Positions 31,161 to 42,302 of a stretch of DNA of 64,000 bases are shown in pieces. The notes under the pieces were generated by a model. It saw only the letters and a program-made list of their open reading frames with translations, was not told the origin of the DNA and did no database searches. Both the position numbers and the translations under genes were made by a program. The stretch comes from Tepidimonas aquatica (GTDB lineage: Bacteria; Pseudomonadota; Gammaproteobacteria; Burkholderiales; Burkholderiaceae_C): positions 1-64,000 of the forward strand of contig NZ_VJNA01000015.1 in assembly GCF_007556585.1 (NCBI RefSeq), read 5' to 3'. Positions within the stretch are counted from its first letter, which is position 1; each line of letters starts with the position of its first letter.

Positions 31161-32873
31161 ATGAACCGCCCCACCCCCGCCCTGGTCACGCCGCAAGCCG
31201 CGCGGCGCTTGCCGCGCTGGGTGCCGTGGCTGCTGGTGGCGGTGTACGTGTTGCCGGGCTTTTGGGGGCGCGACCCCTGGCGTGGCGCCGACCTGACGTC
31301 GCTGGCCGTGATGCTGGACATGCACGGCGGCGGTCCTTGGCTGCTGCCCCAGGTGCTGGGCGAGGCCGTGCTGCCGCTGGCCTGGCTGCCGTATTGGCTG
31401 GGCGCGACGGCCATCGAGTGTTTGCCGCTGCCGACGCTGGTGGCGGCGCGCCTGCCGTTCATGGTGGCGCTGGGGCTGACCCTGGCGTGCACCTGGTACG
31501 GCACCTACCGCCTGGCACGGCTGCCCACGGCGCAGCCCCTGGCACCCGCGTTGGGCGAAGCGGTGGCGCCAGTGGACTATGCCCGTGCGGTGGCCGATGG
31601 CGCGCTGCTGGCGCTGGTGGCCACACTGGGGCTGGCCATGTTGGCGCACGAGACCACGCCGACGGCGCTGCAACTGGCCGGCGTGACGCTGTGGGGGTGG
31701 GCCGGCACGCTTGGCTGGGCGCCTGCCGCCGCCCGCGGCGTGGCGTCTGCAAGCTTGCTTGCCATCGGCGCGACGTGGGCCGGCGCGGGCATCCTGTCGC
31801 TCAGCGGCGCGCCGTGGCTGGTGCTGCCGCTGGGCTTGGCGCACGCGGTGTGGTGGTGGCGCACCGGTGTGCGGCGCGCCCAGATTGTGCTGGCGCTGGC
31901 CGGGGCGGCGGCGGCACTGGCCGCGGCGTGGGCGCTGCTGCCGACGGGCTTGGGGTGGTCGGCGTTTGGTTGGCCAGATGGCTTTGACGTGCTCGATACA
32001 GCCGCATGGCGCAGCCTCGGGCGTTTGCTGGCATGGTTTGTCTGGCCCAGTGCGGCGCTGGCGTTGTGGGCGCTGTGGCGCTGGCGCGCGCACCTGCGCT
32101 CGCCCCATATCGGTTGGCCGCTGACGCAAACGCTCATCGTGTTGCTGGCCAGCGTGGCCGATGGCGCCAACGACCGCGTGCTGGTGCTGGCGCTGCCCAG
32201 CATCGCCACGCTGGCGGCGTGGGCGCTGCCGACCCTGCGCGGCAGCCTCAGCGCCGCGATCGACTGGTTCGCATTGTTGCTTTACAGCGGCGCTGCGGTC
32301 ATCGTGTGGGTGATCTGGATCGCGATGATGACCGGTGTGCCAGCCAAGCCTGCCGCCAACGTGGCGAGGCTGGTGCCGGGCTTCGAGCCTGCCTTGAACC
32401 CACTGCCGCTGGGCGTGGCGCTGGCTGGCACGGCGGCGTGGTTGGCGTTGGTGGCGTGGCGCCTAGGACGGCATGCCCCCGCGCTGTGGAAAGGGCTGGT
32501 GCTGTCGGCGGCGGGCTTTACGCTGAACTGGCTGCTGCTGATGACGCTGTGGCTGCCCCTGTTGAACTGGGGTTTGGGCTTGCGCCCCATCAGCGAGCGC
32601 ATCGCGCGCCTGGTGCCCACGCAGGCGTGCGTGGCCGTCACGGGGCTTAGCCACGGCGACATCGGTGCGCTGCGCTTGCACGGAGGCTTGCACCTGCAAC
32701 GCCTGGGCAGCCACGAAGCACAGCGCTGCCCACTGCTGGTGGCGGGGCCGCGCACCCGTGGGCTGGATCCGAGCCAATGGAGGCTGCGCGCCGACTTGCC
32801 GCGCCTGCGCGAAAACCGCGAGCGTTGGCAAGTTTACGAGCGCGTCGCGCCCGCCGCCGACAGTGCCTCGTGA
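31161..32873 (+). CDS. Multi-pass membrane protein, ArnT-like glycosyltransferase candidate
   Basis: 570 residues with many hydrophobic segments spread along the whole length. After the first membrane segment comes GFWGRDPWRGADLTSLA, which resembles the first periplasmic loop, with catalytic acids, of lipid-carrier-dependent glycosyltransferases (ArnT/PMT type). A small periplasmic-type C-terminal region follows the last membrane segments. The donor and acceptor are unknown. The ATG at 31161 has GGGAG upstream. Its last 40 bases overlap the 3' end of phoR on the other strand. Confidence 0.65.
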   Translation: MNRPTPALVTPQAARRLPRWVPWLLVAVYVLPGFWGRDPWRGADLTSLAVMLDMHGGGPWLLPQVLGEAVLPLAWLPYWLGATAIECLPLPTLVAARLPFMVALGLTLACTWYGTYRLARLPTAQPLAPALGEAVAPVDYARAVADGALLALVATLGLAMLAHETTPTALQLAGVTLWGWAGTLGWAPAAARGVASASLLAIGATWAGAGILSLSGAPWLVLPLGLAHAVWWWRTGVRRAQIVLALAGAAAALAAAWALLPTGLGWSAFGWPDGFDVLDTAAWRSLGRLLAWFVWPSAALALWALWRWRAHLRSPHIGWPLTQTLIVLLASVADGANDRVLVLALPSIATLAAWALPTLRGSLSAAIDWFALLLYSGAAVIVWVIWIAMMTGVPAKPAANVARLVPGFEPALNPLPLGVALAGTAAWLALVAWRLGRHAPALWKGLVLSAAGFTLNWLLLMTLWLPLLNWGLGLRPISERIARLVPTQACVAVTGLSHGDIGALRLHGGLHLQRLGSHEAQRCPLLVAGPRTRGLDPSQWRLRADLPRLRENRERWQVYERVAPAADSAS

Positions 32874-34216
32874 GGCTTGCCCGCAGGCGCTGAAGTGGAC
32901 GGCGCCGGCACCAACACCCGCGCCGGCGGCAGCCGCAGCCGGAAGGTCGAACCCCGCCCGACGGTGCTGTCGATCAACAGTTCGCCACCATGGCGCTGCG
33001 CCACATGCTTGACGATGGCCAACCCCAAACCCGTGCCGCCGGTGTCGCGCGAACGGCTGCGGTCCACGCGGTAAAACCGCTCGGTCAGGCGTGGCAGGTG
33101 TTCCGGCGCGATACCGGGGCCATCGTCGCGCACCCAGATTTCCAAGGCTTCGTCGGGCAGCACCGTCCAGCCCAGTGTGATGTGGCCACCCGCCGGCGTG
33201 TACCGCACCGCGTTGCTGGCCAGGTTGCCCAACGCGCTGGCCAGCTCGCTGCCTTGCCCAGCCACCTCTGCGTGCGGGCCGCGCTGCACCTCGATGGTTT
33301 GGCGTCCACCGTGCAGCACATCGGCCAGCGCACGCGCATGGGCAGCTGCCTCCTCCACCAGCGCAGACACCTCCAACCATTGGCTGGCGTCCGGCGGGGG
33401 GCTACCTTCCAGGCGGGACAGGGTCAGCAAGTCCTCCACCAGCGCCTGCATGCGCTGGGCCTGCTGCGCCATCAGCCCAAGGTACTGCTGGCGCTGCGCG
33501 TCGTTCAACGGCAGCGTTTGCAGCGTTTCGATAAACCCTGTGATGACCGTCAGCGGGCTACGGATTTCATGCGAGACATTGGCCACGAAGTCGCGCCGCA
33601 TGGCCTCGGCCAGCTGCAGCGCCGTGACGTCGCGGGTCAGCAACAGACGTCGGCCCTTGGCATAGGGGAAGATTTGCACGGCAATGCGCTGGGGGTGGCC
33701 GGGCCGCGCCTGGCGGCCGTCGATCTCGACCGCTTGCGTGAAGTCACGCTGATTCAGGTACTGAATGAACAGCGGGTCGCGCACCAGGTTGCGGATGCGC
33801 TGGCCCAAGTCGCGCTTGGCGTCAAAGCCCAGGTGCTCACCCGCCATCACATTGCACCACTCGATCGTGCCTTCTTTGCTGAGCAGCACGACCCCGTTGG
33901 GCGAGGCCTGGATGGCCGACAAAAACTCCTGCAAGCGCGCCTGGGCTTTGCGCGCCTTGCGGTTGGCACCTTTGAGGGCGCGGCGCACCCGCGCCACCAG
34001 CTCACCCCAGGCACCGTCCAGCTCGGGGGTGTCACCGGGCTTGGGCTCGCGCAACCATGCCAACACCGCGCGCCAATGGCGGTGGTCCCAGGCTTGCCAC
34101 GCCACGGCCCCGGCCAGCGCCCCCAGCCACGCCATGCCATGCCCGGGCAGGAACAGCCACACCAGCGCGGCGCCGGCGCTGACGCATGCCACCAAAGCGG
34201 TTGTGCGCTGCCACAT
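32834..34216 (-). CDS. phoR: Phosphate-regulon sensor histidine kinase PhoR
   Basis: 460 residues. Two short hydrophobic stretches (about 8-25 and 29-42) anchor it. A linker and PAS domain follow (FLSAIQASPNGVVLLSKEG, about 98-190). The dimerisation/phosphoacceptor helix has H216 in VANVSHEIRSPLTVITGF. The ATPase has LGNLASNAVRYTPAGGHI, DDGPGIA and TGGTGLGLAIVKHV. PhoR reads phosphate supply through the Pst transporter and PhoU and phosphorylates PhoB. It is the last gene of the pst-pho operon, 45 bases after phoB. Confidence 0.95.
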   Translation of the reverse strand: MWQRTTALVACVSAGAALVWLFLPGHGMAWLGALAGAVAWQAWDHRHWRAVLAWLREPKPGDTPELDGAWGELVARVRRALKGANRKARKAQARLQEFLSAIQASPNGVVLLSKEGTIEWCNVMAGEHLGFDAKRDLGQRIRNLVRDPLFIQYLNQRDFTQAVEIDGRQARPGHPQRIAVQIFPYAKGRRLLLTRDVTALQLAEAMRRDFVANVSHEIRSPLTVITGFIETLQTLPLNDAQRQQYLGLMAQQAQRMQALVEDLLTLSRLEGSPPPDASQWLEVSALVEEAAAHARALADVLHGGRQTIEVQRGPHAEVAGQGSELASALGNLASNAVRYTPAGGHITLGWTVLPDEALEIWVRDDGPGIAPEHLPRLTERFYRVDRSRSRDTGGTGLGLAIVKHVAQRHGGELLIDSTVGRGSTFRLRLPPARVLVPAPSTSAPAGKPHEALSAAGATRS

Positions 34217-34261: not shown

Positions 34262-34963
34262 TCAACCGACCGTGGCGGCCGCCGCGCTGAGGCGGTAACC
34301 GGCGCCACGCACCGTCTCGATCATCACGGCCGCCCCGCCCAAACCCTCGCGCAGGCGCTTGATGTGCACATCCACCGTGCGCTCTTCGATGAAGACGTGG
34401 TCACCCCAGACGCGGTCCAACAGCGTGGCGCGGCTGTGCACGCGCTCCGGGTGCTTCATCAAGTAGTGCAGCAGCCGGAATTCGGTGGGGCCAAGCCTGA
34501 GCTCCTGCCCCTGCCACGTCACGCGGTGCGCGGCCGCATCCAGCACCAGCGCACCGATGTGCACCGTATCCGGCACGTTTTCGGGGGCGCGGCGGCGCAG
34601 CACCGCCCGGATGCGCGCGAGCAACTCCTGCGTCGAAAACGGTTTGGTCACGTAGTCATCAGCGCCAGCGTCAAGCCCTTGCACCTTGTCCGACTCTTCG
34701 CTGCGCGCGGTCAGCAGGATGATCGGCACCCCCCGCGTGCGCTCGTCAACACGCCACGCGCGCGCCAGCTGCACGCCGCTTTTGCCGGGCAGCATCCAGT
34801 CGAGCAGCACCACATCGGGCAACACCGCGTCCACCTCGCGCTGCGCCGCCTCGGCGTCGAACACCACCGTCGGCGCAAACCCGTTGTGGCGCAGGTTGAC
34901 GGCGATCAACTCCGCGATCGCCGGTTCGTCTTCCACCACCAGCACGCGAGGCAGCTTTTTCAT
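34262..34963 (-). CDS. phoB: Phosphate-regulon response regulator PhoB
   Basis: 233 residues. The receiver domain has acidic D12, phosphoacceptor D55 in VVLLDWMLPGKSG, and K107 in VTKPFS. The C-terminal OmpR-type winged helix includes GPTEFRLLHYLMKHPERVHS and the recognition-helix region IEERTVDVHIKRLREGL. It binds Pho boxes. The start overlaps the phoU stop by four bases. Confidence 0.97.
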   Translation of the reverse strand: MKKLPRVLVVEDEPAIAELIAVNLRHNGFAPTVVFDAEAAQREVDAVLPDVVLLDWMLPGKSGVQLARAWRVDERTRGVPIILLTARSEESDKVQGLDAGADDYVTKPFSTQELLARIRAVLRRRAPENVPDTVHIGALVLDAAAHRVTWQGQELRLGPTEFRLLHYLMKHPERVHSRATLLDRVWGDHVFIEERTVDVHIKRLREGLGGAAVMIETVRGAGYRLSAAAATVG

Positions 34964-35658
34964 CGCACCACCGTTTCCACTTGCTCCAACGGGGCATGAC
35001 GCACGTCCTGCCCTTTGACGATGTAGATGATCAACTCGCCGATATTTTTGGCGTGGTCACCGATGCGCTCGATGGCTTTGGCCACAAACAACAGATCCAG
35101 GCTCGGCGAAATCGTGCGCGCATCCTCCATCATGAACGTCACCAGCTTGCGCACGAAACCGTTGAACTCCACATCGATGCGGTCGTCGTCGCGCATGATG
35201 GCCAAGGCCTCGTCGACATCCAGCCTGGCCAGCGCGTCCAGCGCGCGCCGCAGCATGCCGGAGGCCAAATCCGCCGCCAAACGCAGCTCCGCCACTGGCA
35301 GACGGCGTGCGTGGCCGCTTTCCGTGATCGACGCTGCCATGCGCGCGATGCGGGCCGCCTCGTCGCCGGCGCGCTCCAGGTTGCCGACCGTTTTCGAAAT
35401 ACCAATCAAAAAGCGCAAATCCCGCGCGGTGGGCTGCCGCCGAGCGATGGTGGTCGATAGGTCGGCGTCGATGCCCAGCTCGAGTTCGTTGATTTCGCGC
35501 TCGACCTGCAGCACCTGCTGGGCGCGCTCGCTGTCCTCGTCGAGCAGCGCTTGCACGGCCCACTGGATCTGTCGCTCCACAAGTCCACCCATTTCCAGCA
35601 CACGGGTGGAAATGGAATTCAGTTCGGCGTCAAATTGGCTGGAAATATGCTTTTCCAT
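34960..35658 (-). CDS. phoU: Phosphate transport regulator PhoU
   Basis: 232 residues with the two helical-bundle repeats of PhoU. It begins MEKHISSQFDAELNSISTRV, and the metal-binding motif appears as NLERAGDEAARIA in the first bundle and AIERIGDHAKNIGEL in the second. PhoU links PstB to PhoR and keeps the kinase off when phosphate is plentiful. It lies 28 bases after pstB and overlaps phoB. Confidence 0.97.
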   Translation of the reverse strand: MEKHISSQFDAELNSISTRVLEMGGLVERQIQWAVQALLDEDSERAQQVLQVEREINELELGIDADLSTTIARRQPTARDLRFLIGISKTVGNLERAGDEAARIARMAASITESGHARRLPVAELRLAADLASGMLRRALDALARLDVDEALAIMRDDDRIDVEFNGFVRKLVTFMMEDARTISPSLDLLFVAKAIERIGDHAKNIGELIIYIVKGQDVRHAPLEQVETVVR

Positions 35659-35686
35659 CGCTGGCTCCTGTTGTCCTGACCGCTGT

Positions 35687-36517
35687 TCAACCAAAGCGGC
35701 CGGTGATGTAGTCCTCGGTCTCCTGACGCTTGGGCCGGGTGAAGATATTGTCGGTGGCGTCGTATTCGATCAGGTCGCCCAGGTACATGTAAGCGGTGTA
35801 GTCCGACACCCGGGCCGCCTGCTGCATGTTGTGCGTGACGATGACGATGGTGTACTTCTCTTTGAGCTGAATCAGCAGCTCCTCGATCTTGGCCGTCGAA
35901 ATCGGGTCCAGCGCCGAACACGGTTCGTCCAGCAGCAGCACATCCGGCTCCAGCGCGATGGCTCGCGCGATCACCAGACGCTGCTGCTGCCCACCCGACA
36001 GGCTCAGCCCGTTGGCGTCGAGCCGGTCCTTGACATCGTCCCACAGCGCCGCGCCGCGCAAGGATTTTTCCACCACCTCGTCGATATAGGCTTTGTTCTT
36101 GACGCCGAGCAGCCGCAAACCGTAGGCGACATTTTCGTAAATCGACTTCGGAAATGGATTGGGCTTTTGAAACACCATCCCGATGCGCCGGCGCAGCTGC
36201 GCGACATTCACACTGCGGTCGTAGATGTTGACGCCCTCGTGCATGATTTCGCCTTCGATGCGGCAGTTGTCGACCAGGTCGTTCATGCGGTTGAAGCAGC
36301 GCAGCAATGTCGATTTGCCGCAACCACTGGGACCGATGAAGGCCACCACGCGGCCTTTTGGAATGCCCATCGAGATGTTGTGCAGCGCGTGCTTGTCGCC
36401 ATACCAGAGGTTGAGGTTGCGTACCTCGAGCGCTTTGGGCAGCGACTCCAGCGGCGGCGCCTGGTGAAACACCGCATGGGTGTGAACAAACGTGGTCTTT
36501 TCGGTGGTCGTATTCAT
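35687..36517 (-). CDS. pstB: Phosphate ABC transporter ATP-binding protein PstB
   Basis: 276 residues. Walker A is GPSGCGKST (62-70), the signature is [19 protein letters not shown], and Walker B is [13 protein letters not shown], followed by the switch His in [16 protein letters not shown]. It powers high-affinity phosphate import through PstC and PstA. Only three bases separate it from pstA. Confidence 0.98.
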
Positions 36518-36520
36518 CGT

Positions 36521-38176
36521 TCAAACGCCTTCCAATCCCCGGTATTTTTCACGCAAGTGGTTGCGCAGCTTGATCGCCGCCAGGTTCAGCACCATGATCA
36601 ATATCACCAGCAGCAAGGCGGTGGCATAGACCAGCGGCCGCGCGGCCTCGACGTTGGGGCTTTGGAAGCCAACGTCGTAGATGTGAAAGCCCAGGTGCAT
36701 GAACTTGCGCTCCAGGTGGACAAACGGTGCGTAGCCGTCGATCGGCAGCGAGGGGGCCAGCTTGACCACGCCGACCAGCATCAACGGGGCAACTTCGCCA
36801 GCCGCGCGCGCCACCGCCAGGATCAGGCCGGTCATCATCGCCGGGCTGGCCATCGGCAACACGGTGCGAATCAACGTCTCGGCTTTGGTCGCGCCCAGCG
36901 CCAGGCTGCCCTCACGTACCGAGCGCGGCACACGCGCCAACCCCTCTTCGGTAGCCACGATGACCACCGGCAGCGTCAAAATGGCCAGCGTCAACGACGC
37001 CCACAGCAGCCCCGGCGTGCCAAAGGTTGGGGCCGGCAACGCTTCGGGGTAAAACAGCCGGTCGATGTTGCCGCCCAGCACGTAAACAAAAAACCCCAGA
37101 CCGAATACGCCGTAAACGATCGACGGCACGCCGGCCAGGTTGTTGACCGAGATGCGAATGATGCGAATCAACGGCCCTTGTTTGGCGTATTCGCGCATGT
37201 AGACGGCGGCCATGATGCCAAATGGCGTCACGATGACCGACATCACCAACACCATCGTCACCGTACCAAAGATGGCGGGGAAGATGCCTCCTTCGGTGTT
37301 GGCTTCGCGCGGGTCGTCGGTCAAAAACTCCCAGAATTTGCGCGCGTAGTGCAGCAGCTTGTCCAGCGTGCCCATGGCATTGGGCTGGTAGACATCGGCC
37401 ACTTTGGCCAGCGATACCTCGACGAGGCTGCCGTCGGCCACTTCGGCCACCAGGGTGTCGCGTGCGATGTCCTGACGCAGCGTTTGCAGGCGCTGCTGCA
37501 GCTGGTCGAACTCGGCTTGCAGGGCTTCACGCTGGCGCTGCAACTCGGCGCGCAGCGCGTCGTCGAGTTTGCCTTGCAGCGTGGCCTTGCGCTCGCGCAA
37601 CCGCAACTGCTCGAGCCGGTAGTTGACATCGCCGATATCGTCCTTTTCAAGGCGGTAAATCTCGCGGAACAGCCGTTGCGCACGCTGTACACGCGCCTGC
37701 AGCTCGGGCCATGCTTGTGGCCCTGCGGCCACCACCCGCTCCCCTTCTTTGACCGCCTTGAGGTGGCCGTAAAAATTGCCCCACTCGTGGCGCTCCACCG
37801 TCAGAATGTCCACAGGGTACTGCCACGTCCCCAGCAACGGCAGGGGAAACCAGCGGAAATCCTGTCCGGTCAGGTCGCGGTTGCCCAATTTGATCAGCAC
37901 CCGCTCGACAAATGGGTCATTGGACTCGATGTTGAAACCGGCCTCTTGCAGGCGGCGCAGCGAAACCTCCTCGCGCTCGCGCAGCTCACCGATCACGCGC
38001 ACGGTCTGCGCGCCGTCGCGAAACGTGGTCTCCAGCACCGCCTTGGGCCAGAAATGCGTCAGCCCCCGTGCCGCGGTCATCCACAGCACAAACACCACTG
38101 CCAGCACCGACAACGCCACCGCGCCGGCCGTCATCCAGATCCAGGGCACCCCAGATTTGATCCAGTCTTTCATCAC
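36521..38176 (-). CDS. pstA: Phosphate ABC transporter permease PstA, enlarged form
   Basis: 551 residues against about 300 in E. coli PstA. An N-terminal membrane segment (about 11-33) is followed by a large predicted periplasmic region (about 35-300) that contains a charged coiled coil near 165-245 (RLEQLRLRERKATLQGKLDD and neighbours). The conserved permease domain fills the rest, starting near TVTMVLVMSVIVTPFGIMAA and including the EAA-loop region PRSVREGSLALGATKAETLI. The enlarged type is known in other proteobacteria such as Pseudomonas; the extra part has no assigned job. Confidence 0.93.
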   Translation of the reverse strand: MMKDWIKSGVPWIWMTAGAVALSVLAVVFVLWMTAARGLTHFWPKAVLETTFRDGAQTVRVIGELREREEVSLRRLQEAGFNIESNDPFVERVLIKLGNRDLTGQDFRWFPLPLLGTWQYPVDILTVERHEWGNFYGHLKAVKEGERVVAAGPQAWPELQARVQRAQRLFREIYRLEKDDIGDVNYRLEQLRLRERKATLQGKLDDALRAELQRQREALQAEFDQLQQRLQTLRQDIARDTLVAEVADGSLVEVSLAKVADVYQPNAMGTLDKLLHYARKFWEFLTDDPREANTEGGIFPAIFGTVTMVLVMSVIVTPFGIMAAVYMREYAKQGPLIRIIRISVNNLAGVPSIVYGVFGLGFFVYVLGGNIDRLFYPEALPAPTFGTPGLLWASLTLAILTLPVVIVATEEGLARVPRSVREGSLALGATKAETLIRTVLPMASPAMMTGLILAVARAAGEVAPLMLVGVVKLAPSLPIDGYAPFVHLERKFMHLGFHIYDVGFQSPNVEAARPLVYATALLLVILIMVLNLAAIKLRNHLREKYRGLEGV

Positions 38177-38199: not shown

Positions 38200-40485
38200 T
38201 CAAATGGTTTGGTAGCGCTGGCGCAGGCGCTGGCGCACCAGCTCGGCCAGGGTATTGACGACAAAGGTAAAGCCAAACAGCACCAGTGCCGACAGGAACA
38301 GCAGCCGGTAATGCGTTTCCCCCACGCCAGCTTCGGGCATTTCCACCCCGATGTTGGCCGACAGCGTGCGAAAACCGGTGAATATGCTCCAATCCATCAC
38401 AGCCGTGTTGCCAGTGGCCATCAGCACGATCATCGTTTCGCCCACAGCGCGCCCAAGCCCGATCATGATGGCGGAAAAGATGCCGGGGCTGGCCGTCAGC
38501 AACACCACGCGCGTCAGCGTTTGCCACGGCGTCGCGCCCAGCGCCAGCGAGCCGGTGGTGAGGTGCTTCGGCACCGAAAAAATCGCATCTTCGGCAATCG
38601 AAAAAATCGTCGGCGTCACGGCAAAGCCCATGGCAATGCCCACCACCAGCGAGTTGCGCTGCTCGAACTTGATGCCCGCCACGTTGCTGAGCCAGTTGGG
38701 CATATCGCCGCCGAAGAGCGCTGCCTCGATGGGGTGGCCCAGCGTCAAGCACAGCCACACCTGCAACACGACCACAGGCACCAGCCAAGCCGCCTCCCAC
38801 CCAGGCGGCACACGCAGGCGGACCGCCTCGGGCAGCAATGCAAACAGCCACGCCGCAGCAAAAAACGTCAGCGGAAAAGTGGCGATCGTCAGCAACACGC
38901 CGGCCAGGTTGTTTTCGACAAACGGCGCCAGCCACAAACCCGCCAAAAAGCCCAACACCACGGTGGGCAGCGCCTGCATCACCTCAATGGTGGGTTTGAT
39001 CGCGCCGCGGATCTTGGGTGACATGAAGTACGCGGTGTAAATCGCCCCCAGCAGCGCCAGCGGCACCGCGACGATCATCGCGTAGAAGGCCGCCTTGAGC
39101 GTGCCATAGGTCAATGGCGTCAGGCTGAATTTGGGCTCGAAGTCGGCGTTGGCGGCGGATGACTGCCAGACGTACGCCGGCTCTTCGTAACTTTCGTACC
39201 AGACCTTTTGCCAGGTGGCGTAGAACGACACCTCGGGGTAGTCGTTTTCGACGTGGGCCACGTGCAGCCGGCCCACCGCATCCTCGGCCATGTAGGCGTT
39301 GCCACGCGGCGGGTAGCCGAGATGGGCGATCGGCTGGTCCGATACCTTGCGCTGAAACAGCAACCGCTTGGAGGTGGCAAAGTAGCTGCCGACGTGGCCT
39401 TGTGCATCACCAGCCATAAAACCCTTGCGGTGGTACTCGGGCTCCAGCACCGTCACCGCAGCCGGCATCGGCTTGAAATCGCGAATGTGGGTCAGCTTGA
39501 AGCGCGTACCTTCCTCGCGCACCGGGAACCACTGCGCCAGGTTGCCCCGGTCGGTGCCGACGATGATCGAAAAGCCGCCCGACAGCATCGTCAGCGCCGT
39601 GACGCGCTCGCCCGGCCCGACCAGCTGCACCTTTTCAAGCAGTTGGGGGGCTGACTTGTCGCTGATGTCGTAGCGCCACAGCTCGCGGTCGCCCGACAGC
39701 ACAAACATTTCGCGCTGCTTGAACTCGATCAACACCTCCCGCACCGACGGTGGTGCGGGCTGGATTTCAGCGGCGCTGCCTTGAACCGTTTCCTCACCGG
39801 TGATGGGGTTGCGTTCCACCGCCAAGCCACTGACCCACAGGCGCGCGTCGTCCGTCAATGCGGCCAGCGTGGTGCCGTCGGGGCTGTGCTGCACCGCCAG
39901 CTTCACCAGCGGGCGCTGTTGGGGGTCAATGGCCACCGGCTGCGCACCGGCGGGGTATTCCACCTGCGGCTCGATGACGCGCCGGGCCTCGGCGTCGAAG
40001 CTGGTCTTGAACCCCACTTGAGCCACCAGCGCACGGCCGTCGTCGAGCCCCAGCGCCAGCACGCTGGCCGCGCGGTCGGCAGCCGCTGTCGAACGCACGG
40101 TGCGGCCCGCCGGCAGCGCCAGGGCCATCTCGGCCTGCGGCCGCCCGCTGGCGAAATCGGCAAACACCACGCGGCCGTCGGCTTGCGCGCGCACCAGGGT
40201 TTCGAGCCGCTCGTCCGCCTGCAACAGCACCGCCGGCTGCTGCGCGTTGCCCGGCGCCGGGTACGAGGTCTGCGCATCCACCTTGGGCGGCATGAACAGC
40301 GGCACCACCACGCTGGCCAAGTAAAAAAAGATGGCCGTGATGGCCACGATGACGCCCAGGCCACCGGCTGTCATCAGGCCCTTGAACCAGCGGTCTGTCC
40401 ACAGGCGCCGCCCCATGGCGCGGTCCACGCTTTGGGCCGTCAGGCTGCGGGCCTCGGTGCCGTCGATCGACTGCGTTGAATCCAT
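38200..40485 (-). CDS. pstC: Phosphate ABC transporter permease PstC, enlarged form
   Basis: 761 residues against about 320 in E. coli PstC. After an N-terminal membrane segment (about 36-62) comes a periplasmic insert of roughly 390 residues with repeated beta-rich blocks (QLLEKVQLVGPGERVTALTM, FSIIVGTDRGNLAQWFP) suggesting a propeller-like fold. The permease domain starts near residue 455 (FSLTPLTYGTLKAAFYAMIV) and contains the EAA-type loop PKHLTTGSLALGATPWQTLT. The ATG at 40485 follows an intrinsic terminator by 26 bases. Confidence 0.93.
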   Translation of the reverse strand: MDSTQSIDGTEARSLTAQSVDRAMGRRLWTDRWFKGLMTAGGLGVIVAITAIFFYLASVVVPLFMPPKVDAQTSYPAPGNAQQPAVLLQADERLETLVRAQADGRVVFADFASGRPQAEMALALPAGRTVRSTAAADRAASVLALGLDDGRALVAQVGFKTSFDAEARRVIEPQVEYPAGAQPVAIDPQQRPLVKLAVQHSPDGTTLAALTDDARLWVSGLAVERNPITGEETVQGSAAEIQPAPPSVREVLIEFKQREMFVLSGDRELWRYDISDKSAPQLLEKVQLVGPGERVTALTMLSGGFSIIVGTDRGNLAQWFPVREEGTRFKLTHIRDFKPMPAAVTVLEPEYHRKGFMAGDAQGHVGSYFATSKRLLFQRKVSDQPIAHLGYPPRGNAYMAEDAVGRLHVAHVENDYPEVSFYATWQKVWYESYEEPAYVWQSSAANADFEPKFSLTPLTYGTLKAAFYAMIVAVPLALLGAIYTAYFMSPKIRGAIKPTIEVMQALPTVVLGFLAGLWLAPFVENNLAGVLLTIATFPLTFFAAAWLFALLPEAVRLRVPPGWEAAWLVPVVVLQVWLCLTLGHPIEAALFGGDMPNWLSNVAGIKFEQRNSLVVGIAMGFAVTPTIFSIAEDAIFSVPKHLTTGSLALGATPWQTLTRVVLLTASPGIFSAIMIGLGRAVGETMIVLMATGNTAVMDWSIFTGFRTLSANIGVEMPEAGVGETHYRLLFLSALVLFGFTFVVNTLAELVRQRLRQRYQTI

Positions 40486-40510
40486 ACGATGTCGGGTTGC
40501 GTTGTGCCAA

Positions 40511-40545
40511 CAAAAAGGTGGGCCGCGGCGACCGCCTTGGCCCAC
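40511..40545 (-). terminator. Intrinsic terminator inside the pst operon, upstream of pstC
   Basis: On the minus strand GTGGGCC...GGCCCAC encloses an inner GGCG/CGCC pairing and is followed by CTTTTTG. It sits between the lipoprotein gene and pstC. Partial read-through would give more PstS and lipoprotein than permease. Confidence 0.7.
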
Positions 40546-40575: not shown

Positions 40576-41214
40576 TCAGCCAGCCCCGCGCAAGGCACGG
40601 AAGCGCTGCATACGCTGCGTGGGCTCACCCTCGGCGTACGAGCGTTTGTCCATCACCCAGACAATGGTGGCGCCGTTAGGCCCAGCACCGATGTCGGTGA
40701 ACGAATAGGGAACCTCCCCGTGCGCCGCAAAGTCGAGCAGCTGCTTCAAATCCCCGAACACGTAGTATCGACCACCTTTGAACACCTCGCCGTAAAAATC
40801 CGCGGCGGGTGCTAACTGGCCGTCGTACACCCGCTCACCCGTGCTGGGCTGGCCATGTTTGACATCATCTTTGGTGATGCCAAACACCACCGTCTGGCCG
40901 CTCGGCCCCGCCCCGATGCGGGTGCGCGTCAGGGCGACCTCGCCGTGGGCCAGGTAATCCTGGTACAGCTTGAAGCTGCCAAACGCGTAGTAGCGGCCGT
41001 CTTCGGGCAACACGACATAAAACTCAGCTGCCTGCTGCGTGCTGGCCGCTGCGGGGGCTGGTGCCGACGCAGGCGACACCGCCGCCGAGGCTGTGGCCGG
41101 GGCCGGCGCTGGGGTGGAGGCGGCCTTCGCTGCAGGCGACTGCCCACCGGGCGCAGCGCACCCCGCCAGCCCGGCCACCAGCGACACCCCTGCGATCCAA
41201 ATACGATTCGACAT
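40576..41214 (-). CDS. Unrecognised lipoprotein with a tandem 54-residue repeat, in the pst operon
   Basis: 212 residues; I do not recognise the family. A lipoprotein signal ends in lipobox LAGC (Cys19), with A and P after the Cys. Residues 25-62 are an Ala/Pro/Ser-rich tether. Two copies of one module follow, at about 64-117 and 139-192 (75-residue period), both showing FY...GRYY.FG..K...D..AHGEV and IGAGP.G.T. The second copy is followed by a charged tail. It lies 13 bases after pstS, so it should be made with the phosphate-binding protein. A periplasmic phosphate-related or envelope role is inference from position only. Confidence 0.85.
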   Translation of the reverse strand: MSNRIWIAGVSLVAGLAGCAAPGGQSPAAKAASTPAPAPATASAAVSPASAPAPAAASTQQAAEFYVVLPEDGRYYAFGSFKLYQDYLAHGEVALTRTRIGAGPSGQTVVFGITKDDVKHGQPSTGERVYDGQLAPAADFYGEVFKGGRYYVFGDLKQLLDFAAHGEVPYSFTDIGAGPNGATIVWVMDKRSYAEGEPTQRMQRFRALRGAG

Positions 41215-41227
41215 GGGGTGCCTCCGC

Positions 41228-42208
41228 TTACTTGCTCAGCTCATCGAGGGCTTTTTTGGCCAGGGTGGCCGGCAGCGGCACAAAGCCGTCTTTGACCACG
41301 ACCATCTGCCCTTGCTGCGACAGCACCATCTTGAAGAACTCGCGCTCCAGCGGCGGCAGCGGCTGGTTGGGCTTTTTGTTGACGTACACGTAGAGGATAC
41401 GCGCCAGCGGGTAGCTGCCATCCACCGTATGCTTTGGATCGGGCTCGACGAACGGTTGGCCCTTCTTCTTCGACAGCGGCAGTGCACGCACGCCCGAGGT
41501 CTTGTAGCCGATGCCCGAGTAACCGATGGCGTTGAGCTGCGTGGCCACCGACTGCACAACCGACGCCGAACCGGGCTGCTCGGCCACGTTGCGCTTGAAG
41601 TCACCCTTGCACAGCGCCACCTCCTTGAAGTAGCCGTAGGTGCCCGACACCGAGTTGCGGCTGTAAAGCGCGATGTCGCGGTTGGCCCACTCACCCGTCA
41701 GCCCAACCTGGCCCCACTTGGTGATGTCGCTGGCGTAGCCGCACTTGCGCGTGCTGGAAAAGATCGCATCGACCTCTTCGATGCTCAGACCCTTGATCGG
41801 GTTGTCTTTGTGCACATAGACCGCCAGCGCGTCGATGGCCACCGGCACCGGGTAAGGTTTGTAGCCGTGTTTTTTCTCGAACGCCTCGACCTCCTTGGCG
41901 GTCATCAGGCGGCTCATCGGGCCGAAGTTGGAGGTGCCCTCGGTCAGCGCCGGCGGCGCGGTGGACGAGCCGGCCCCCTGGATCTGGATGTTGACATTGG
42001 GGTACAGGCGCTTGAACTCCTCGGCCCACAGCGTCATCAGGTTGTTGAGGGTGTCCGAGCCGATGCTGGTGAAGTTGCCCGACACCCCGGCCGCCTTTTC
42101 GTACTTCGGCAGAGCGGGATCGACTTGGGCAGCCTGCGCCATGGCGCTTTGGGCCGTGAAGCCCAACGTGACGATGCCCATCAGGGCCAAAAGTTTGTTC
42201 AGCTTCAT
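41228..42208 (-). CDS. pstS: Phosphate ABC transporter substrate-binding protein PstS
   Basis: 326 residues with a cleavable signal ([20 protein letters not shown], likely cut after AMA). Phosphate-contacting blocks are present: [40 protein letters not shown] and [18 protein letters not shown]. It captures phosphate in the periplasm for PstCAB. The ATG at 42208 is the family start. It heads the operon, and a Pho box lies 76 bases upstream. Confidence 0.97.
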
Positions 42209-42284: not shown

Positions 42285-42302
42285 GTGACGGTTGTGTGAC
42301 AG
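42285..42302 (-). promoter_or_regulatory. Pho box upstream of pstS
   Basis: CTGTCACACAACCGTCAC: two 7-base direct repeats (CTGTCAC, CCGTCAC) separated by 4 bases, very close to the PhoB consensus. It lies upstream of pstS in the gap shared with the divergent ppx gene. Confidence 0.85.

Follow-up and report, generated by a model that had tools for sequence, protein, structure and literature searches.

Pst is among the best-studied bacterial transporters, and a subtype of it, marked by a propeller in PstC, seems to include an additional lipoprotein left unnamed by the family libraries searched here. Among exported Pho-regulon proteins to which such a lipoprotein can be compared are, reportedly, a Caulobacter low-phosphate lipoprotein and the DING protein; DING and PstS-like proteins are large periplasmic-binding folds. 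By architecture, NosL/MerB-like lipoproteins, built of two small beta-beta-alpha-beta repeats, and the YHS domain, a hairpin plus helix, also invite comparison. In Pseudomonas, the available part of one study describes Psp and unnamed PhoBR-dependent proteins as exported and belonging to the Pho regulon, and reports PhoBR-dependent conserved hypothetical proteins in Pseudomonas putida BIRD-1, one with a locus number next to pstB1 (PMC5082522). Phosphate and arsenate genes also cluster, with pst operons inside arsenic islands in the accessible portions of two reports (PMC3834237, PMC5930303), the first of which raised the phosphate/arsenate question when it described such islands (PMC3834237). 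Here we analysed a window of 64,000 nucleotides from Tepidimonas aquatica, the whole stretch under study, in which a lipoprotein gene lies within a pst operon. Searches of the open full-text literature (PMC) yielded no description of this lipoprotein, most subscription papers being outside that scope.

A two-module lipoprotein is encoded between pstS and pstC

On the minus strand, the genes run pstS, lipoprotein gene, pstC, pstA, pstB, phoU, phoB and phoR (Table 1). The divergent gene is ppx, its match slightly under the cut-off of its model, and ppk lies further upstream. At this operon the nearest named relatives are Tepidimonas species and one Hydrogenophaga MAG. The pstS query for TIGR02136 started two codons inside the gene, at 42202, and PstC scored 10 bits under its NCBIfam cut-off. 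The family model of PstA does not match before residue 282; by eye, the additional N-terminal sequence is coiled-coil-like. As originally noted, pstS ends 13 bases upstream of the lipoprotein gene. The internal terminator proposed downstream is present as a weak hairpin, in a stretch whose folding does not exceed that of shuffled sequences (z -0.27). Continuation of the operon into phoU, phoB and phoR would suit a modulator of Pho signalling via PstC, PhoU and PhoR rather than of transport; beyond the shared operon nothing speaks for that role, and we hold it to be very improbable.

Table 1 Features of the pst operon in the Tepidimonas aquatica window, in window positions
Feature	Position	Strand	Basis or remark
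Pho-box-like sequence upstream of pstS	42285..42302	-	11/14 matches
pstS, phosphate-binding protein	41228..42208	-	TIGR02136 over cut-off; probable start MKLNK
Lipoprotein gene	40576..41214	-	212 aa; from 41214 down to stop at 40578-40576; no family name in libraries searched
Signal peptide with lipobox LAGC	41158..41214	-	Sequence; Cys19 codon 41158-41160
Ala/Pro-rich tether, residues 20-63	41026..41157	-	Composition
Module 1, residues 64 to ~135	40810..41025	-	Motif GR.Y.F ... GE ... IG.GP.G.T
Module 2, residues 139-212	40579..40800	-	Same motif as module 1 (GR.Y.F ... GE ... IG.GP.G.T)
Weak terminator-like hairpin, gap between lipoprotein gene and pstC	40521..40533	-	5-pair hairpin, then CACCTTTTTG at 40533-40521
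Long pstC	38200..40545	-	781 aa as listed; likely start 40482
PstC insert with predicted propeller, residues 86-505	within 39031..40290	-	Unnamed by Pfam and NCBIfam
Long pstA	36521..38176	-	551 aa; TIGR00974 over cut-off
pstB	35687..36517	-	TIGR00972 over cut-off
phoU	34960..35694	-	TIGR02135 over cut-off
phoB	34262..34963	-	TIGR02154 over cut-off
phoR	32834..34216	-	TIGR02966 over cut-off

The lipoprotein gene has codon-position G+C contents of 0.67/0.55/0.77, the third position being highest, as in the neighbouring genes, and at E 0.001 its own 2.67-Mb genome holds one copy. The architecture claimed originally, comprising a lipobox Cys19, a Pro/Ala tether and two module copies with a 75-residue period, was recovered throughout. 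The window protein has the signal peptide and the lipobox ending in Cys that mark bacterial lipoproteins: the Cys of L16-A-G-C19 is invariant in 12 of 12 sequences (alignment A1, window protein included), and the lipobox is absent from some short forms of the family. The Ala at position +2, next to the lipobox Cys, suggests sorting to the outer membrane. The 45 residues 19-63 include 20 Ala and 8 Pro. The modules (64-138 versus 139-212) share 44% identity over 61 residues without gaps (BLASTP E 6e-17), and their local score of 138 was reached by none of 2000 shuffles, the best of which scored 51.

With exceptions, the module consensus reads GR.(Y/W).F, followed by GE and T.IG.GP.G.T. In 23 full-length proteins, only Gly, Arg, Glu, Ile, Phe, Tyr and Pro occupy invariant positions, with one Asp and one Lys nearly invariant; given these invariant residues, the protein does not look like an enzyme. 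It lacks a catalytic signature and has the appearance of a tethered binding module. At pI 5.9, the two modules together are mildly acidic, a property not conducive to anion binding.

Family and fold searches leave the lipoprotein unnamed

No Pfam or NCBIfam model, including those for PstS, PstC, PstA and PstB, matched the window protein over cut-off, which supports the original statement that it is no standard pst component. Scans of 12 relatives (Pfam and NCBIfam) and of 23 (Pfam) gave weak families only, several of them falling on the low-complexity tether or concerning single members. DUF5754 (PF19058) was matched by 8 of the 23 at E up to 1 (best 1.5e-4), and was rejected because the window protein scored 18.3 bits over ~30 residues against a curated cut-off of 27.4. 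HPAT, an SCO4651-type lipoprotein and other weak matches were likewise below cut-off and rejected, as was the YHS domain (PF04945; one of 23 members). NosL (PF05573) did not figure among the families listed at E up to 1 for either the 12 or the 23 members, and its profile matched in none of 20 genomes, the window's own included, at E 0.001. A P-loop reading of GAGPSGQT was discarded since this sequence lacks the Walker Lys and is followed, in the structure model, by a strand rather than a helix. A PHROGs search of the lipoprotein family gave nothing convincing. Among PDB sequences, searched with a single sequence and with two profiles, the best match had E 0.13, and plasmids yielded no match to P0001 or to two short forms.

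An AlphaFold2 model built from eight sequences, a shallow alignment that may limit it, reached pLDDT 76 and pTM 0.68 at best, the remaining four models having mean pLDDT of 43 to 61. It tentatively predicts two beta-beta-alpha-beta-beta-alpha-alpha units, an assignment we regard as shaky. No fold match was accepted (PDB best E 0.38, VIA best Z 2.8, BFVD best E 0.15), and with this pLDDT 76 model no NosL or MerB chain appeared among the Foldseek and VIA matches listed.

The gene's position is fixed in Burkholderiales

A draw of 299 genomes of the family gave 18 that passed E 0.001, of which 7 were clear homologues (E below 1e-50, own genome included). Wider draws, each again counting the own genome, were positive in 4 of 399 genomes (order), 12 of 369 (class; one of these being a fragment at a contig edge and another a three-module form) and 12 of 398 (phylum), and a scan of named genomes gave seven loci. 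Before counting, we dropped weak, mostly tether-covering matches (L008-L019, E 1e-7 to 1e-3, checked for pst neighbours only) and a 48-aa fragment at a contig edge (G975, L059). In f236, 21 of 23 carriers were examined, the full-length copies on G1538 contig 25 and G1551 being left out; in f210, two weak rows (G1464, G1406) were left out.

Each of the 15 distinct Burkholderiales loci (the window, L002-L007, L020, L023-L026 and L043-L045; L021 and L022 are identical to L003 and L004 in their encoded proteins, and L046 and L047 re-read L005 and L007) has the gene flanked by pstS and pstC. In one of these genomes, an additional pstC-pstA-pstB set of the short type is oriented divergently to the long-type operon (L043, 1383-3979, minus strand). 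The expected proximity of homologues to pst genes thus held in Burkholderiales but in only 2 of 36 full-length loci elsewhere (L049-L057, L073-L079, L144-L163): in L053 the gene lies between pstS and pstC, and in L051 just upstream of pstS. The flanks examined, some of them short, contained no pst gene in the remaining 34. In a 35-row tree, the form inserted between pstS and pstC, L053 included, makes up one clade of 15 rows (support 98/95), from which L051 lies apart. A three-module relative found in one genome (L058, not in the tree) starts 76 bases after pstB. The placements beside pst in the inserted clade with L053, in L051 and in L058 are apparently separate. With only 2 of 36 loci beside pst, the link to phosphate outside Burkholderiales would be in doubt were it not for Pho boxes.

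The lipoprotein goes with a long PstC

The PstC encoded downstream of the lipoprotein gene is much longer than its family model, and its insert is predicted to contain a beta-propeller. In an AlphaFold2 model of this region, pLDDT was mostly above 80 up to query residue 340, and the Foldseek matches listed were WD40-type propellers (best E 1e-13) with TM-scores mostly 0.5-0.7 and rmsd about 6-7. The propeller should be periplasmic because it is placed after the first membrane helix.

In the order draw, 4 of 150 genomes had the propeller region, three of them lipoprotein carriers; it was also present in 20 of 20 other carriers, hence in 23 of 23 carriers tested. In the class draw it occurred in 50 of 151 genomes, two tail-only matches left out, with 6 of 6 carriers positive and 44 of 145 genomes having the long PstC and no lipoprotein. 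Co-occurrence was significant in both draws (Fisher 7e-6 for the order and 0.001 for the class, uncorrected for shared descent, with genomes not listed as lipoprotein-positive assumed to be without it); in Burkholderiales the lipoprotein gene and long pstC are neighbours. The lipoprotein goes with long PstC, and long PstC often occurs without the lipoprotein, which is therefore no required subunit.

Pho-box-like sites precede relatives outside pst operons

We scored the 350 bases upstream of each gene by matches out of 14 to the consensus letters of the E. coli Pho box, with a threshold of 11. The box consists of two 7-base repeats, 4 bases apart, as given in the available part of PMC4563254. 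None of 12 pst-linked lipoprotein genes reached the threshold, which is to be expected of genes within an operon. It was reached by 7 of 14 regions upstream of pstS, compared with 8 of 13 full-length genes elsewhere, 11 of 20 full-length f236 genes and 11 of 20 short forms; order-1 resampling gave an expectation of 0.3 to 0.8 sites per group. In the window, the site upstream of pstS is not significant alone (five such sites against 2.3 expected).

A stricter count, on the gene's strand and close upstream, gave 24 of 55 against 10 of 451 other ORFs of the same loci; of these 10 control matches, six precede a neighbouring PAP2 gene and one pstS, perhaps true Pho genes. After removal of near-copies, the figures were 21 of 40 against 9 of 396 (Fisher 4e-18, uncorrected for shared descent), leaving 19 of 40 regions under the threshold; these sets include L051, which lies beside pstS, and short forms. 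The Pho half-site TGTCAT was the top de novo 6-mer (20/40 versus 32/396). With one full-length locus per genus, 7 of 12 genera reached 11 matches and 11 reached 10. This selection was made with the scores already known; L073, L075 and L077 represent the genera with several loci, and L076, a congener of L077, has a score of 8. Scores of only 8 or 9 were seen in L074, L076, L080, L136, L149, L152, L157 and L160-L162. On this sequence evidence, relatives of the lipoprotein appear to carry upstream sites of the Pho-regulon type, and together with the fixed position in Burkholderiales they give good support to the link to phosphate limitation proposed originally.

The PAP2 phosphatase gene next door has its own Pho-box-like site in six loci (L073, L145, L146, L156, L158, L159), which suggests that the PAP2/glycosyltransferase cluster may itself be Pho-regulated. 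The neighbours bear on another reading, in which the protein is a Pho-regulated envelope component unrelated to Pst itself, acting for example to remodel lipids or the surface when phosphate is low. Of seven f236 full-length loci inspected, five adjoin genes for a PAP2 phosphatase and a glycosyltransferase, and four adjoin one for a phospholipase A1 (named by Pfam on L157 only and by eye on the others); besides the sites on PAP2 genes, one short form (L138) follows a 5'-nucleotidase-type gene. Such remodelling does not account for the invariable pstS-pstC position in Burkholderiales or for a long PstC in every carrier tested, and we think it unlikely.

Most short forms adjoin arsenate-resistance genes

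A short-module profile (A6) was used to search two family draws of 129 and 48 genomes, and found 9 and 12 clear loci, respectively; the weaker rows that were examined proved to be full-length forms. Profile comparison relates short and long forms with 97.7% probability (E 1.5e-12, 45 columns). This subfamily of one or two modules adjoins ars genes in 16 of 21 loci, that is, 9 of 9 in the first family and 7 of 12 in the second, L141 having arsR alone. ArsJ, ArsJ-associated GAPDH, ACR3 and ArsH were named by NCBIfam over cut-off in examples from L080, L082 and L052; ars genes at other loci were matched to those of L080 and L082 by BLASTP, and those of L081 named by eye. Five loci (L132, L134-L136, L138) had no ars genes nearby. 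Damaged short-form copies persist beside ars genes at L081 (7158-7403; G1220, one internal TGA) and L131 (5286-5543; G1499, broken frame), and both were counted as ars-linked. Very good Pho-box-like sites precede the short forms of L142 (14/14), L139 and L140 (13/14 each).

This neighbourhood raises the possibility of a discrimination factor, a module that reduces the entry of arsenate via Pst while phosphate is limiting and Pst expression is therefore high. Besides the short forms beside ars genes, some with those very good sites, one full-length gene (L052) lies ~3.5 kb from GAPDH-arsJ, and the arsenic islands with pst operons noted above would fit the idea. Against it, no ars genes were seen near the other full-length loci examined (BLASTP for 20, by eye for the remainder), function cannot be read from gene proximity alone, and in GFAJ-1 deletion of either pst operon left arsenic resistance unchanged, according to the available part of PMC5930303. 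We consider such a factor doubtful.

Discussion

Phosphate is the common thread through the operon position, the Pho-box-like sites elsewhere and the arsenate clusters. We judge it about evenly balanced whether the lipoprotein is a Pho-regulon, lipid-anchored periplasmic binding accessory of a propeller-type PstSCAB transporter. The computed basis is gene order, Pho-box-like sites, co-occurrence with long PstC and short forms in ars clusters, from which we infer a mechanism. At low phosphate, PhoB would switch the gene on; the lipid would anchor the protein, probably in the outer membrane, and a flexible tether would let the two small modules reach into the periplasm. There they would be binders and not catalysts, and would most likely dock on the propeller of PstC or on PstS, or hold a phosphate oxyanion, so that phosphate delivery is favoured. 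Short forms in ars clusters may have the same role where ArsJ releases arsenate.

The lipoprotein may aid phosphate capture, as proposed originally. The link to phosphate limitation is well supported, and the other part of the original proposal, sensing of the envelope state, found no support; neither the arsenate link nor the co-occurrence with long PstC had been foreseen. A bolder proposal, to which we give a low probability, is that an unnamed Pho-regulon module family, with one to three copies per protein, docks on the long-PstC propeller and helps Pst tell phosphate from arsenate. If true, phosphate uptake and arsenate resistance would have a periplasmic part in common, and a new layer of oxyanion selectivity would lie outside PstS. 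The presence of the module beside arsenate-resistance genes makes a connection of phosphate scavenging with arsenate avoidance concrete and open to experiment.

Comparison with known systems

On paper, NosL/MerB-like lipoproteins resemble the window protein as lipoproteins of two small repeats, and YHS domains resemble it in a hairpin plus helix, one of 23 members matching YHS at E 0.23; unlike them, the lipoprotein family gave no significant profile match and has no conserved Cys or Met. The exported Pho-regulon proteins, set beside it by description rather than by sequence, are similar in being exported and low-phosphate-induced, the induction of the window lipoprotein being a probable one. 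Arsenic islands with pst genes name no such lipoprotein in the available parts of PMC3834237 and PMC5930303, and the words 'lipoprotein' and 'hypothetical' are absent from the main text of PMC3834237; they are alike in joining phosphate uptake to arsenate handling (PMC3834237, PMC5930303). Closest is the canonical PstSCAB-PhoU-PhoBR operon, which has the same order of pstS, pstC, pstA, pstB, phoU, phoB and phoR and a Pho-box-like site upstream of pstS. The window operon differs from it in having one more gene, that of the lipoprotein, placed after pstS and before pstC, as well as a PstC with a propeller insert and a PstA with a long N-terminus.
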